From Acholeplasmataceae bacterium (lineage in GTDB: Bacteria > Bacillota_I > Bacilli_A > Acholeplasmatales > Acholeplasmataceae), in the NCBI GenBank assembly GCA_021108415.1, contig JAIOQX010000002.1, forward strand, positions 1 through 64,000: a stretch of 64,000 nt of DNA, written 5' to 3'. A model generated the notes under the pieces. It searched no databases and was not told the DNA's origin. It worked only from the letters and a program-made list of their open reading frames with translations. Shown one piece after another: positions 12,071 through 48,360 of this stretch (positions within the stretch are counted from its first letter, which is position 1; the number at the start of each line of letters is the position of its first letter). The position numbers and the translations under genes are program-made.

Positions 12071-12426
12071 AAAGTCAATGTGCATAAGCCATGTTCTGTA
12101 GCCCTAAAAGGGTGTGACCATTTATCTCTACATAAGTAGCGTAATTTAGCTTTGTTTCGCTATCCTACGTTCCCCTACCAAATTTGGGTTTCTAGCTTGA
12201 GGGGTTTACCTCGTTTCATTTACTTATTTCTAAGTAACTCGTTTCTGTGGCACGTTTTGCCATAGATCATCGCTATAAGCATTAGATCATCTGACGCCGT
12301 TACATCTGATGATGTACCCTAAGTTATTGTTTCCTTAGGCACAAACACTACATTCATTTCAGAATGTGCTAGCATGGACTTTCCTAACCTATGAAACCAT
12401 AGGCTTGGTCACCTTCCATTGACTTT
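12071..12426 (-). ncRNA. rnpB: RNase P RNA, bacterial type B
   Basis: The catalytic RNA of RNase P, about 356 bases. The ends pair as a perfect 10-bp P1 (12071-12080 with 12417-12426). The minus strand contains the conserved GGAAAGTCCATGCTAGC near the 5' end and ACAGAACATGGCTTA near the 3' end, which pair as P4 and its surroundings in all bacterial RNase P RNAs. The insert pattern fits the type B form of low-GC Gram-positives. An extended -10 TGATAAAAT (12432-12437) places the transcription start at about 12426, in agreement with the P1 boundary. Confidence 0.95.
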
Positions 12427-22714: not shown

Positions 22715-23684
22715 ATAACCAATTAGCCGCCTCTTCTATGGTTTCTACTGGTACAATAATAAATGAATAATCAATACCATCAATCTCATCTAAATGTGAT
22801 TCTGGTATGAAAAATACATCAACTTTATTGAATTCTGCAGTGTATATTTTTTGTCTAATACCACCAATTCTACCAATGGTTCCATCACTATTTATGGTCC
22901 CTGTACCAGAAATTTTGATATCAGGAATGTTTAGCGTGAGTAAACTTACATAAATACTAAGCGTTTGAAGCATGCCACCACTAGGTCCACCTACAGTGGA
23001 ATTAAGCCCTGGAAGTTCATAACTGGGGAATGCTTGATATATTTCATACTTTGGATAAAACCAAAATGAAACATCTCCGCTTTCTTGTACATATTCAACT
23101 TCATATGTGCTTCCATCTTCTCTTTCAATTAGATACGTTGCCATTTGATGATCAATTAGATCAAAGAATGCTTGAGGGTCATAGTTATCATATGATTCTC
23201 CGTTTATCTCTTTGATGATATCCCCGATAGAGATTTGGTCTAATCTATTTGGAAAATCATAAATATATAGTCCTTCAAATCCATAATCCATCACAATACT
23301 ATCATCTACTGCTTTAGCCATTGTATAAGCTTTGATAAGTGATATTTGATAGGATACACTTTTTGATAATTGTCCTTGACGATACTCATCAACAATCGTG
23401 TTTTCCTGTTCTCTAATTGTCGGTTTTCTTAATATAAATTGATCATTATTTTGTAAAACCATATACTGAAAAGCAGTTATTGGATCAAATGAATACACAT
23501 ATATACTATAAAACTGATCTGGCATTTCATGCTCATCAATAATAAAACTACTTTCAATTTGTGTGAGTCCACCTGGAGCAGTTACATTATAGTTTGTTGG
23601 AGCTACCGCTACAAATAAAACATAAAGGTAGGCAAACATACCTACAATAATTATTGTTTTATGATCTTTAAGAAACTTTATCAT
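22695..23684 (-). CDS. Lon-like membrane protease with PDZ domain (YlbL family)
   Basis: One N-terminal membrane segment (about residues 10-30) is followed by an extracytoplasmic region with a PDZ-like domain (about 130-200, IYDFPNRLDQISIGDIIKEI) and a Lon-type serine/lysine peptidase domain. The catalytic Ser lies in GGPSGGM and the Lys in GGIRQKIY, with SGTGTINSDGTIG between them. The start is placed at 23684 (329 aa) because GGTGA lies eight bases upstream; the further upstream TTG at 23699 lacks a site. It overlaps comEB by 17 bases. Bacillus YlbL has a similar layout. Confidence 0.9.
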   Translation of the reverse strand: MIKFLKDHKTIIIVGMFAYLYVLFVAVAPTNYNVTAPGGLTQIESSFIIDEHEMPDQFYSIYVYSFDPITAFQYMVLQNNDQFILRKPTIREQENTIVDEYRQGQLSKSVSYQISLIKAYTMAKAVDDSIVMDYGFEGLYIYDFPNRLDQISIGDIIKEINGESYDNYDPQAFFDLIDHQMATYLIEREDGSTYEVEYVQESGDVSFWFYPKYEIYQAFPSYELPGLNSTVGGPSGGMLQTLSIYVSLLTLNIPDIKISGTGTINSDGTIGRIGGIRQKIYTAEFNKVDVFFIPESHLDEIDGIDYSFIIVPVETIEEAANWLYETYNG

Positions 23685-24141
23685 AAGATAATTCACCAAC
23701 TTTTATTTTTCTTGTATGCACTTTAGCAGCTTCTAACATCTTAATTGCTGCTTTATGTTCATTGGTGTGTTGATATTTATCACTTTCATATACAATTTCT
23801 GTGATTCCACTTTGAATAATTAACTTCGTACACTCATTACATGGAAATAAACTCACATAGATCTTAGATCCCTTTAGTGATTGGGTCGCATTTAATATAG
23901 CATTTGCTTCTGCATGGACAACATAAGGATACTTCGTATCTAAAAAGTCACCTTCACTTGCCCATGGAAACTCTTTATCCTCTGCACCTTTTGGCATCCC
24001 ATTGTATCCAATACCAACGATTCTTAAATCTTTGTTAACGATGCATGCACCTACTTGAGTATTTGGATCTTTACTTCGAAGTGCTGATAATTTTGCAACA
24101 CCCATGAAATAATCATCCCATGAAATATATGATTTTCTCAT
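23668..24141 (-). CDS. comEB: dCMP deaminase (ComEB family)
   Basis: It deaminates dCMP to dUMP, feeding thymidylate synthase (thyA at 55.3 kb). Zinc-binding motifs of the cytidine deaminase fold are present: HAEANAIL with the catalytic Glu (near residue 75) and PCNEC (near residue 100). 157 aa, normal length. It starts one base inside the msrA stop codon region and overlaps the Lon-like gene. Confidence 0.92.
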   Translation of the reverse strand: MRKSYISWDDYFMGVAKLSALRSKDPNTQVGACIVNKDLRIVGIGYNGMPKGAEDKEFPWASEGDFLDTKYPYVVHAEANAILNATQSLKGSKIYVSLFPCNECTKLIIQSGITEIVYESDKYQHTNEHKAAIKMLEAAKVHTRKIKVGELSYDKVS

Positions 24142-24638
24142 TATTTACGCTCATCTTCTTTCGCTAATCCTAAATTGATATGACAATATCCAAATGGATT
24201 TTTCTTTAAATATTTTTGATGATTATCTTCTGCAAGCTCATAATCAAGATTTTCTTTAACCTTAACAACTACCTTATCATAGTTTTTACCAAAATATGAT
24301 TTCATATAGGCTTCCACGCTTGTTTTTTGATTCATATCATCTAGATAAATGCCACTTCTATATTGATTTCCGACATCATTTCCTTGTTTATTCACACTAA
24401 ATGGATTCATAATTCTAAAGAAATGTTCTAAAACTTGTTCTAATGAAATCACTTGTTCATCATAGTTAACTTTACATGCTTCAGCATGAGAAGCTATGCC
24501 ATTACAAACTTGATGATATGTTGGGTTTTTAGAATTTCCATCAACATAGCCAACTGATGTCTCAACAACACCTTTTAATTGTCCAAAATAGGCTTCTACG
24601 CCCCAAAAACAACCACCTGCTAATACAATTGATTTCAT
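24141..24638 (-). CDS. msrA: Peptide methionine-S-sulfoxide reductase A
   Basis: It repairs oxidised methionine. The catalytic motif GGCFWGVEAYF carries Cys10, and the family block GNQYRSGIY is present. Start placed at 24638 (165 aa) because GGAGA lies seven bases upstream of this ATG; a TTG at 24650 has none. It begins one base after the aspS stop codon, so it belongs to the GNAT-hisS-aspS transcript. Confidence 0.93.
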   Translation of the reverse strand: MKSIVLAGGCFWGVEAYFGQLKGVVETSVGYVDGNSKNPTYHQVCNGIASHAEACKVNYDEQVISLEQVLEHFFRIMNPFSVNKQGNDVGNQYRSGIYLDDMNQKTSVEAYMKSYFGKNYDKVVVKVKENLDYELAEDNHQKYLKKNPFGYCHINLGLAKEDERK

Positions 24639-24639
24639 C

Positions 24640-26355
24640 TTATTCTCCAATCTTTAAATGTAGCTCATCTAGTTGAACTTGATCCACGTCACTTGGTGCT
24701 TGCATCATTTGATCTTTAGCACTTTGTGTCTTTGGAAATGCAATAACGTCTTTAATATTGCTCGTATGTGTCATTAACATAACAATACGGTCAAGTCCTA
24801 ATGCTAGTCCTCCATGTGGAGGTGTTCCATATTTTAATGCATCAACAAAGAATCCGAAACGATGCTTAACTTCTTCATCTGATAGCCCTAATGTTTCAAA
24901 CATCAATTTTTGTACATCTTGATTATGGATACGAATAGATCCTCCACCAATTTCATAACCATTTAGAACGATATCATAAGCTTTAGCCATCGCATCTTTT
25001 GGATTTGTTTTTAATTGATTGACATCACTTGGTGCTGTAAATGGATGATGTTTTGCATAAAATCGTTTTTCTTCTTCATCATATTCTAATAACGGCCACT
25101 CTGTAACCCATAAGAACTTATAAATATTTTCATCAATTAAATTAAATTGATGTGCTAATTCAACTCTTAATGCACCAAGTGCATTTAATGCTTGATCATT
25201 ATTGCCTGGAACTAAAAATAAAATATCTTGATCTTTTAGATTAAGCGTTTGATAATCCGCTTCATTCATAAATTTATGAATACTACCTGAATATACACCT
25301 TCAACATTTTTAACATAAACAAGTGCATCTCCATGATTCTTTTTCACTAAATCTGATAGTTTATCAATTTGTTTTCTTGTTAAAGATGCGCCCTGATTTA
25401 AAACAATACCTTTAAGATATGATTTATCATTGAATAAAGGTATATCAATTTTGCTAAATAAAGCTTTATAATCGTTGATTAAAAGCTCATATCTCATATC
25501 TGGTTTATCAGTTCCATATTTTTCCATCGCATCTTGATAACTCATTTTTAAAAATGGTGTTTGGACTTCAACATCTAAGACTTGTTTGAACGTATGCTTC
25601 ATCACACGTTCAATTAACCCTTGAATATCTTCTTGGTCAATGAAAGATGCTTCAATGTCAACTTGCGTAAACTCAGGTTGACGATCTGCTCTTAAATCTT
25701 CGTCTCTAAAGCATTTAGCCATTTGGAAATACTTTTCAAATCCTGCAACCATAAATAATTGTTTATAAATTTGAGGTGATTGTGGTAATGCGTAGAAATG
25801 ACCAGCATAAAGTCTAGAAGGCACGAGATAGTCACGTGCTCCCTCAGGTGTTGATTTACCTAATATAGGTGTATCTAGTTCATAAAAGCCCTCAGACACT
25901 AAAACACTACGTATAGATTGCGTAATTTTATGTCTTTGGATTAAAAAGTTTTGCATATGAGGTCTTCTTAAGTCTAAATAACGATATTTCAATCGAGTTT
26001 CTTCTAGTGCATCTGTATCATCTGAGACAGACATTGGAGGTGTTTCAGCTGCACTTAATATGGTGAGCTCTTTCACATCAATTTCAATTTCACCGGTTTG
26101 CATATTTAAATTTTTAGATTCTCTTTCAGAAACGATGCCTTTAACTTCAATGACATACTCACTTCTAATTTTTTCAGCTACACCATAAAATTGGTTATCT
26201 GGTTTAACCATAAGTTGTGTGATTCCAAATCGATCGCGAAGATCAATAAAGATTAATCCACCTAAATTTCTAGATTTTTGAACCCATCCTTTTAAATAAA
26301 CTTCTTGCCCTAAATTTGACATATTCAGTTCGTAATTATTATGTGTATATTTCAT
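24640..26355 (-). CDS. aspS: Aspartyl-tRNA synthetase
   Basis: A class IIb synthetase (571 aa) with an N-terminal OB anticodon-binding domain (about 1-110, GWVQKSRNLGGLIFIDLRDR), motif 2 FRDEDLRADRQPEFTQVD (near residue 215), a bacterial insertion (GAD) domain and motif 3 GLALGLDRIVML (near residue 530). It follows hisS by one base in an operon led by a T-box. The bacterial-type insertion and operon are typical of Firmicutes. Whether it is discriminating or non-discriminating cannot be told. Confidence 0.97.
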   Translation of the reverse strand: MKYTHNNYELNMSNLGQEVYLKGWVQKSRNLGGLIFIDLRDRFGITQLMVKPDNQFYGVAEKIRSEYVIEVKGIVSERESKNLNMQTGEIEIDVKELTILSAAETPPMSVSDDTDALEETRLKYRYLDLRRPHMQNFLIQRHKITQSIRSVLVSEGFYELDTPILGKSTPEGARDYLVPSRLYAGHFYALPQSPQIYKQLFMVAGFEKYFQMAKCFRDEDLRADRQPEFTQVDIEASFIDQEDIQGLIERVMKHTFKQVLDVEVQTPFLKMSYQDAMEKYGTDKPDMRYELLINDYKALFSKIDIPLFNDKSYLKGIVLNQGASLTRKQIDKLSDLVKKNHGDALVYVKNVEGVYSGSIHKFMNEADYQTLNLKDQDILFLVPGNNDQALNALGALRVELAHQFNLIDENIYKFLWVTEWPLLEYDEEEKRFYAKHHPFTAPSDVNQLKTNPKDAMAKAYDIVLNGYEIGGGSIRIHNQDVQKLMFETLGLSDEEVKHRFGFFVDALKYGTPPHGGLALGLDRIVMLMTHTSNIKDVIAFPKTQSAKDQMMQAPSDVDQVQLDELHLKIGE

Positions 26356-26356
26356 A

Positions 26357-27625
26357 TTATTTCTCCATCTTTTCCTTTAAATATGCAGTGATATTTTCAA
26401 TTTTTACTTCTTCTTGAATCTCAGTTTTGGTATCTTTAATACCGACAACACCTTTTTTATATTCGTCATCTCCTAGAATAATTAAGTAAGATGCATGATA
26501 TCTTAAGGCTTGTTTTAATTGTCCTTTAAATGATTTATCTGTATAGTTCATATCTGATACAATATTTTCGTTTCTTAAATCATATAAAATCTTAGTGCCA
26601 ATTTTCTTTAATGCTTTATTAAACGTAATGACATAACAATCAAGATCTAAGTCATTAGATAATTCTATTTCGTTTGCCTCTAGTGCCATTAAGAGTCTTT
26701 CCATCCCAAATGCAAAGCCTATACCACCTAAATCAGGTCCACCAAGCTCTGAAACTAATTTTTGATATCTACCTCCACCACCTAATACATTAGCTGCTCC
26801 AAAGCCTTTAATATCGGCTTCTATTTCAAATACAGTGTGGCTATAGTAATCAAGTCCTCTAACAAGTTTAGGTGCAAGCTCATAATTGATACCACATGAC
26901 TCTAAATTTTCTTTAACTTCATTAAAATATGCGATTGATTCTTCATTTAATAAATCTATTGGTGTCGGTGCATTAATCACTGACTTGTGTTTATCATCAA
27001 TTTTACAATCTAGAATTCTTAAAGGGTTTTTATGAATGCGATTTTTACAATCATCACATAATTCATCAATATGTGGCGTAAAATGCTTAACCAATGCTTC
27101 TTGATATTTATCTCTAGATTCTTGATCACCTAAAGTATTAACTCTAACTTTAACACCTTTTAATCCCAAACGCTTAATGAAATCATATGCAAGGATAATA
27201 ATCTCTGCATCAAGTGCTGGATCAACTGTACCAATTGCTTCTACACCAAATTGAGAGAATTGACGATATCTACCTTTTTGTGGTCTTTCATATCTAAAAT
27301 TAGGTCCAATATAATAAACTTTCTCTAATTCTTGAGTTGCGTATAGTTTATTTTCAACATAACTTCTAATCACACCTGCAGTCCCTTCAGGTCTTAGAGT
27401 TAATGCGCGATTAGAACGATCTACAAAGTCATAAGTTTCTTTTGTGACCATGTCAGATCCTTCAGAGTCTCTATGAAATACATTTGAGTATTCCATCATT
27501 GGTGTTCTCATTTCTTTTATATTATATAAGCTCAATACTTCTCTAATTTTAGCTTCTAATGAAATCCATTTGTAAGATTCATTTGGAAGTACATCATAAG
27601 TCCCTTTTACTTTATTTGCGCTCAT
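26357..27625 (-). CDS. hisS: Histidyl-tRNA synthetase
   Basis: A class IIa synthetase (422 aa). Motif 2 is seen at FRYERPQKGRYRQFSQFGVEAIG and the histidine-specific motifs LVRGLDYYSHTVFE (near residue 255) and GGGGRYQKLVSELGG (near 280) are clear, followed by a C-terminal anticodon-binding domain. GGAGG precedes the start. It overlaps the upstream GNAT gene by 14 bases and is followed one base later by aspS. Control is by the T-box leader at 28208-28361. Confidence 0.97.
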   Translation of the reverse strand: MSANKVKGTYDVLPNESYKWISLEAKIREVLSLYNIKEMRTPMMEYSNVFHRDSEGSDMVTKETYDFVDRSNRALTLRPEGTAGVIRSYVENKLYATQELEKVYYIGPNFRYERPQKGRYRQFSQFGVEAIGTVDPALDAEIIILAYDFIKRLGLKGVKVRVNTLGDQESRDKYQEALVKHFTPHIDELCDDCKNRIHKNPLRILDCKIDDKHKSVINAPTPIDLLNEESIAYFNEVKENLESCGINYELAPKLVRGLDYYSHTVFEIEADIKGFGAANVLGGGGRYQKLVSELGGPDLGGIGFAFGMERLLMALEANEIELSNDLDLDCYVITFNKALKKIGTKILYDLRNENIVSDMNYTDKSFKGQLKQALRYHASYLIILGDDEYKKGVVGIKDTKTEIQEEVKIENITAYLKEKMEK

Positions 27626-28187
27626 TGTAGTCCTCCTTGGTTATTTCATAGCTTAACATATCGTCAGATATAACTAAATTACTTTTCTTTAAAATATAAT
27701 GTTCTTTTTTAATAAATTTAAATCCTGATTTTTCAATAACTTTTTGACTTCCTATATTTTTACTTAAATGTTTGATGATTATTTTGTCGTAATCTAAATA
27801 AGTAAATCCTAATTTTATTAATGCCTTAACTGCTTGAGTCATAATGCCTTGTGACCAATAATCTTTGTGAATGACATATCCAATTTCTGCAATTTTTGCG
27901 TCTTTTACTTTCGAATGAAAATCTACAGTCCCGATCATCTTATTTCGATTTAAATCAATGATTGCATAACCTCTTGGTAATCCGATTTTTGTTCTAGGAT
28001 AAAATATCTCTTTAATTGATCGTCTAGCTTCAACAGGCAAGACCATAGGACCCCAGTTTAAAAACTTTGTGACTGTAGGATCTTTCCCGTATTCAAACAA
28101 ATCAAGATAATCACTTGTTTTTATTGTTCTTAACATATAATGATCAAATATAATTTTTGGCATATGTTTATATGGTTTTCTTATCAT
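27612..28187 (-). CDS. GNAT-family N-acetyltransferase (RimJ/RimL-like)
   Basis: A 191-residue GNAT protein with the acetyl-CoA-binding segment YWSQGIMTQAVKALIKLGF (near residue 110, in place of the usual R/QxxGxG/A) and IGYVIHKD before it. The layout resembles RimJ/RimL-type acetyltransferases that modify protein N-termini or small molecules. It is the first gene of the T-box operon with hisS and aspS, so its expression would follow aminoacyl-tRNA levels; the reason is not known. GAGGA precedes the start. Confidence 0.82.
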   Translation of the reverse strand: MIRKPYKHMPKIIFDHYMLRTIKTSDYLDLFEYGKDPTVTKFLNWGPMVLPVEARRSIKEIFYPRTKIGLPRGYAIIDLNRNKMIGTVDFHSKVKDAKIAEIGYVIHKDYWSQGIMTQAVKALIKLGFTYLDYDKIIIKHLSKNIGSQKVIEKSGFKFIKKEHYILKKSNLVISDDMLSYEITKEDYNERK

Positions 28188-28207: not shown

Positions 28208-28361
28208 TAAAAAAAATCGTCCTTAAAAAATCTAAGGACGAATAATCGCGGTACCACCTTAGTTCTAGAATAACTTCTAGCCCTCAATTTCATATCAAAT
28301 GCCTCCAAAGGTGTCACTATTTATGTATATAAATACACTTTTTCATAGGCTATTCATTTAT
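28208..28361 (-). promoter_or_regulatory. T-box riboswitch leader of the GNAT-hisS-aspS operon
   Basis: The minus strand carries the T-box consensus AAGGTGGTACCGCGA (28246-28260). Upstream lies a short stem I (about 28300-28350) whose 3' side reads GACACCTTTGGAGGC, giving an Asp codon GAC overlapping a His codon CAC as candidate specifiers. A stem III hairpin CTAGAA-GTTA-TTCTAG (28265-28280) follows. The terminator has arms CGTCCTTA and TAAGGACG plus a T run (28208-28240); its 5' arm alternatively pairs with the T-box strand as the antiterminator. Stem I is only about 50 bases, much shorter than the canonical form. Confidence 0.93.
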
Positions 28362-28367
28362 ACTCTT

Positions 28368-28397
28368 ATTTTATCTTTTTTATACGCTTAAAGTCAA
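28368..28397 (-). promoter_or_regulatory. Promoter of the T-box operon
   Basis: TTGACT (28392-28397), 18-base spacer, TAAAAT (28368-28373). The -35 hexamer contains the dtd stop codon TGA (28394-28396). Confidence 0.65.
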
Positions 28398-48149: not shown

Positions 48150-48293
48150 AAAAAAATTTCTATGGATTATCCAAAGAAAATGATAGTTCGATTGATTCAT
48201 ATTACGACTATCCCTCCGCTGGCATGATCCAGATCAGGTTATTCGGGTCGACGATTAATTCGTCCTCTCAGCATTTATGCTCCCCGTAGTGAC
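48150..48293 (-). promoter_or_regulatory. TPP riboswitch with terminator, upstream of thiT
   Basis: The minus strand carries the THI-box aptamer (about 48203-48293): ACTACGGGGAGC, CTGAGAGG, GACCC, ACCTGATCTGGATCATGCC and GCGGAGGGATAGT. It is followed by a terminator with arms TTTCT-TGGA and TCCA-AGAAA (48157-48179) and seven T residues. High TPP should therefore end transcription before thiT. Confidence 0.96.
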
Positions 48294-48360
48294 CATTTAA
48301 ATATTAACACATTTTAGAAAAAAAAACAATCATAAAACATTTTGAAAAGGAAGTGCACTT

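Follow-up and report, generated by a model that had tools for sequence, protein, structure and literature searches.

The window analysed here, a stretch of 64,000 nucleotides from an Acholeplasmataceae bacterium, carries on its minus strand (to which all coordinates given below for this locus refer) a T-box leader, located at 28361-28208 ahead of a GNAT-hisS-aspS gene cluster. It is flanked by dtd, whose stop codon is at 28394, and by the GNAT gene, which starts at 28187. The first gene after it encodes a GNAT acetyltransferase (Acetyltransf_3; 27612-28187) and is followed by hisS, for histidine--tRNA ligase (26357-27625; TIGR00442, 455.5 bits), and by aspS, for a bacterial aspartate--tRNA ligase (24640-26355; NF001750, 796.9 bits). 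Two further genes are probably co-transcribed: msrA (24141-24650; TIGR00401), which overlaps the end of aspS, and a gene for a ComEB-like (dCMP-type) deaminase (23668-24141; TIGR02571, below its cut-off). The operon is thus larger than the first-pass annotation had it, where it was said to encode exactly AspRS and HisRS. The GNAT gene ahead of hisS is conserved across most of the family, and this genome has a second such arrangement, with a GNAT gene between a T-box and an aminoacyl-tRNA synthetase gene, ahead of a ValRS-like gene (L001). In genus g5 (L180, L182, L183) both T-box and GNAT gene are absent, and hisS is the next gene after dtd. A gene after hisS in L281/L282, 30% identical to AspRS, resembles asnS at first sight but scores as a nondiscriminating AspRS. 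Other structured RNAs in the window are a class B RNase P RNA (12080-12420) and a TPP riboswitch (48194-48296), both on the minus strand.

Anatomy of the hisS leader

The Rfam T-box model (RF00230) aligns end to end with nucleotides 28355-28231 (49.9 bits, E 2.6e-10), which bears out the earlier identification of a T-box. The leader shares with the model the T-box sequence, the antiterminator, stem III and the GA motif, and differs from it in that stem II is absent and stem I largely so; because of these missing parts its score is about half of the gathering score of 93, a threshold that is not a biological criterion, and a default Rfam scan does not report the leader for that reason. Twelve T-box matches were obtained in the genome; that of the hisS leader is 125 nt long, and the other 11 span 179-255 nt. 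An overlapping match of this RNA to the L10 leader (23.6 bits, E 0.05) was discarded as being below its cut-off. A leader-peptide ORF (an SD-like GGAGG followed by an ATG, MKLRARSYSRTKVVPRLFVLRFFKDDFF) was likewise rejected, its ATG not being conserved among relatives.

A -35 box, TTGACT (28392-28397), overlaps the dtd stop codon (28394-28396) and reads TTGACA at the equivalent site in relatives; 18 nt separate it from a predicted -10 box that matches the consensus, TAAAAT (28368-28373). Taking into account this promoter-like sequence over the dtd stop, similar in relatives, little or no RNA is expected further upstream.

Stem I spans 50 nt, from GCC to GGC (28350-28301), in keeping with the approximately 50 bases first proposed. 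The 5′ strand of its base helix, GCC (28348-28350), pairs with 28301-28303; most relatives have U-A as the middle pair and eight have C-G, a change of both bases. The 5′ side of the K-turn/GA motif, TATGA (28343-28347), was located through the Rfam alignment and includes a TGA that is invariant in 29 short leaders (see below). It is followed by the lower helix, formed by AAAG (28338-28341) and CTTT (28307-28310), both strands of which show compensatory changes in relatives, and by the upper helix, TATTTAT-ATAC-ATAAATA (28318-28335). GACAC, placed in stem I by the first-pass annotation, is indeed in the specifier loop (28315-28311), and CTTTGGAGG comes next. The 3′ side of stem I closes with GGA of the K-turn and GGC of the base helix (28301-28306), assigned by Rfam alignment, conservation and covariation.

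At the position of stem II there is a 20-nt linker (28281-28300) with a purine run, GAGGG, at its end; neither a stem II nor a IIA/B pseudoknot motif was found in it. Stem III, CTAGAA-GTTA-TTCTAG (28265-28280), shows two-sided changes among relatives in all six pairs. The T-box sequence AAGGTGGTACCGCG (28247-28260) is near-invariant and holds a UGGU bulge at 28256-28253. The intrinsic terminator (28209-28240) consists of CGTCCTTAGATTTTTTAAGGACG, a hairpin of -13.3 kcal/mol, and eight U; its 5′ arm also serves as the 3′ strand of the antiterminator, CGUCCUUA being common to both structures, which are mutually exclusive. The leader therefore has what is expected of a T-box in the broad sense: a T-box sequence with a UGGN bulge and an antiterminator, a stem I specifier (GAC) in register with a codon of a regulated gene, and a competing terminator. 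Simple minimum free energy folding of the leader does not return the T-box fold.

Short hisS leaders among relatives

The double T-loop that binds the tRNA elbow (IDTM) is missing from this leader, its expected place at the tip of stem I being taken by a hairpin of 7 bp and an AUAC loop. The earlier claim that there is no room for distal loop contacts holds, both as to the missing module and as to the promoter that overlaps the dtd stop codon just upstream. The window leader is one of about 30 hisS leaders of Acholeplasmataceae, from eight or nine genera of this one family, that lack both double T-loop and stem II and keep a strong terminator. Short leaders are those of L017 and L022, for example, and they also occur in culturable bacteria such as Peloplasma aerotolerans and strain MO-XQ.

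T-box function is severely impaired when the double T-loop is inactivated by mutation (PMC7583486), and some relatives (L180, L182, L183) have wholly lost the T-box. It could thus be argued that the short leaders are decaying T-boxes which, upon having lost stem II and the double T-loop, terminate transcription at a fixed rate and hardly respond to tRNA. We consider this unlikely. In 29 aligned short leaders there is hardly any variation in GTGAC, the GA motif, the T-box sequence and the terminator arm, when loss of the specifier would be expected of a decaying switch, and the form is spread over several genera. The base, lower and stem III helices covary in the short leaders: 94.9% of cells are paired and ten pairs have changed on both sides, with a covariation score of 0.194 against a shuffled mean of 0.093 (none of 500 shuffles as high) and far lower values for structures slid along the alignment. 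The upper hairpin forms in 28 of the 29, with unrelated sequences. The covarying base pairs suggest that the short leaders are functional RNAs. The leader could also be a weakly tRNA-dependent attenuator. A weaker terminator as compensation for the lost module was considered and discarded: terminator energies are -13.4 kcal/mol in short and -13.3 kcal/mol in long leaders (p 0.55), and antiterminator energies likewise do not differ.

The same hisS leader retains the double T-loop module (AGCGA...GTGAAAG) in close relatives (L015, L016, L023, L026, L044, Acholeplasma and Paracholeplasma species), so that the long and short leaders of close relatives constitute a natural deletion series. When the long or short state was placed on the HisS tree, four changes were required; with more rows added there were six, of which well-supported branches force at least four. 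De novo origin of a double T-loop being improbable, repeated loss is likelier than gain, although leaders may have been exchanged instead. The short form appears confined to hisS. With a covariance model of it run on 296 genomes of the class, only hisS leaders scored above 92 bits, and the short architecture was not found before other genes in these genomes, the lower-scoring matches inspected all having the double T-loop. Among the approximately 150 T-box matches listed for 15 relatives, leaders this short precede only hisS, apart from one 140-nt tandem partner in G148 (G148:C1:1056576-1056926, the second of two T-boxes in tandem).

Other reduced leaders were also observed. In the hisS leaders L181 and L232, GAC lies in the apical loop of a hairpin and there is no stem II, this being the smallest stem I seen here. 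Two hisS leaders of other Mollicutes (L050:3824-3953 and L054:3847-3956) carry the specifier in a bare hairpin loop (GTAAG-AAAGGTGACAG-CTTAC in L050), keep a stem II-like stretch and have a terminator, that is, a class III-like stem I within an apparently transcriptional T-box.

Aspartate and histidine codons in the specifier loop

The specifier loop was compared in 99 different hisS leaders from the order Acholeplasmatales and near relatives, in which counts do not represent independent events. The specifier (28313-28315 in the window) is GAC in 96 leaders and GGC in three, and the base that follows is A in 97 and G in two; the purine that the first-pass annotation had noted after GAC (A at 28312) is therefore present in all 99. 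T-boxes of the same genome have a common register, in which the codon is followed by one base, usually A or G, and the lower helix begins after it: AAC-A-C before asnS, AUC-A-C before ileS, UAC-A-C before tyrS, ACU-A-C before thrS, UCU-A-C before serS and UUC-A-U before pheS. By this register, the window leader reads GAC-A-C.

It had been proposed that the overlapping CAC (28311-28313) is a second specifier, tRNA-Asp reading GAC and tRNA-His reading CAC, so that the operon would answer to either amino acid. There is a precedent in Clostridium acetobutylicum, where an Asn/Glu T-box has been shown to work with both tRNAs (Saad et al., 2013, as described in PMC4052509); as there, two possible codons overlap in one specifier loop and the genes are tied to two tRNAs. 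Furthermore, HisRS and AspRS are both encoded by the operon in nearly all relatives, every one of the 99 leaders has at least one of GAC and CAC, the T-box before hisS-aspS in MRSA has been termed a histidine T-box (PMC7927825), and in a few leaders, that of the window among them, CAC is kept with its last C unpaired, outside the helix. Unlike in Clostridium, however, CAC is out of register here and the overlap recurs in unrelated T-boxes. Within the same family it is found in 28 of 29 asnS (AAC-A-C) and 24 of 26 ileS leaders (AUC-A-C); in tyrS T-boxes the overlap is looser (7/26, versus 80/99 for hisS), a comparison that by itself would not have decided against a second specifier. The CAC frame is lost in 19 of the 99 hisS leaders, in several lineages, and all the retained CAC triplets lack a following A, the base found after nearly every specifier here. 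Pairing of the lower helix begins with the last C of CAC in most short leaders, as a G-C pair in 22 of the 27 distinct ones that have a base at this site. As the overlap is kept equally in asnS and ileS leaders, which have no link with histidine, CAC can be explained as a by-product of the codon-A-C layout, and a two-codon reading is not needed. Conservation of GACAC in related leaders had itself been suggested as the way to check the proposal, with conservation of only one codon as the outcome against it; GAC or the wobble-compatible GGC is present in all 99 leaders and CAC is not, which largely disposes of a dual specifier. We regard it as improbable, even more so than decay.

The bulge reads UGGU in 48 and UGGC in 51 of the 99 leaders, both able to pair with G73, and UGGG in none of them, which is weak evidence as regards histidine. 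Among the tRNA genes found in the genome there is one each for tRNA-Asp, with G73, and tRNA-His, with C73 and an encoded G-1. The first-pass annotation had argued from the UGGU bulge that G73 of tRNA-Asp is tolerated and C73 of tRNA-His is not. The bulge and both discriminator bases are as described, but the case against histidine is weaker than stated, because TBDB waives the discriminator match for His T-boxes on the ground that C73 may be base-paired inside the tRNA itself (PMC7778990). The discriminator base therefore favours tRNA-Asp and speaks only weakly against tRNA-His. With GAC in register and a G73-compatible bulge throughout, tRNA-Asp is the likely ligand, as had been suspected, and histidine may make a weak contribution to the response.

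The three leaders with GGC-A-C precede hisS-aspS operons (L044, L215, L222). GGC is a perfect match to tRNA-Gly(GCC), and we infer that it could pair with the tRNA-Asp anticodon GUC through a central G·U. hisS is still present in the operon of L215 and L222, together with a gene for a nondiscriminating AspRS.

That the middle frame, ACA, specifies threonine is very improbable: it lies two to four bases from the loop end if the C at 28311 is unpaired, a frame that TBDB prioritises, and A73 of tRNA-Thr(UGU) would pair perfectly with UGGU, but A73 does not pair with the UGGC bulge present in half of the leaders, GACG is found among them, the operon contains no threonine gene and a separate thrS T-box in the genome reads ACU.

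A T-box with neither tRNA-bracing module

In published accounts, T-boxes owe part of their tRNA binding to the double T-loop, which stacks on the tRNA elbow, to the S-turn of stem II, which braces the codon-anticodon pairs, or to both, and each of the four classes described has at least one of the two modules (PMC10482949). In transcriptional T-boxes the double T-loop has been termed essential (PMC7583486). Class I combines the module at the tip of stem I with a stem II domain, and the window leader has neither. It resembles in layout class II (Bacillus subtilis glyQS; transcriptional, with a long stem I that carries the double T-loop and no stem II; PMC10482949), with which it shares transcriptional control, a specifier in an internal loop, a K-turn and a flexible linker (28281-28300) where stem II would be. 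Relatives with a long hisS leader conform to the class II layout. The window leader and its approximately 30 relatives, however, lack the double T-loop, and their codon is Asp, class II having been described as glycine-specific. Leaders with a double T-loop, apparently no stem II and non-glycine codons are also found before tyrS and ileS of this genome (L009, L010) and in relatives.

Absence of the double T-loop is shared with classes III and IV (PMC10482949), both of which have a stem II. Class IV (Actinomyces ileS; stem I of intermediate size, specifier in a side bulge) resembles the window leader in that the specifier lies between a lower and an upper helix, but is mostly translational, whereas the window leader has a clear intrinsic terminator. 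Class III (Nocardia ileS) has a short stem I, and in L181 and L232 the specifier is even in the apical loop; nevertheless, class III requires stem II and is mostly translational, neither of which applies to the window leader.

Our preferred reading, for which we estimate a probability of roughly 0.78 from comparative sequence evidence, is that the leader is a transcription-attenuating T-box that senses uncharged tRNA-Asp alone, with no double T-loop or stem II. Transcription would start just past dtd, and the nascent RNA would comprise a stem I stub (base helix, K-turn, lower helix, specifier loop and short upper hairpin), the bare linker, stem III and the segment that folds into antiterminator or terminator. 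GAC at 28315-28313 would be read by the anticodon GUC of tRNA-Asp, and the UGGU bulge would pair with the 3′ end of the uncharged tRNA, G73-CCA, through a U·G wobble at position 73. Once bound, uncharged tRNA would allow the antiterminator to form, with read-through into GNAT-hisS-aspS; with charged tRNA, the terminator would form instead. The histidine codon would have no role. As neither the double T-loop nor the stem II S-turn is available, recognition would have to rest on the codon and the 3′ end, or on contacts not yet described.

Somewhat better than even, in our view, are the chances that these leaders represent a further T-box class: transcriptional, Asp-specific and devoid of double T-loop and stem II, which would switch on tRNA-Asp through codon and 3′-end pairing alone or through a new contact, and would have arisen several times in the leader of one gene with the modules retained in the remaining T-boxes of those genomes. 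If true, a conserved T-box that acts on transcription and has neither module would show the least that suffices for a tRNA sensor, and the long and short hisS leaders provide a ready set of deletions for establishing what the contact with the tRNA elbow is worth.
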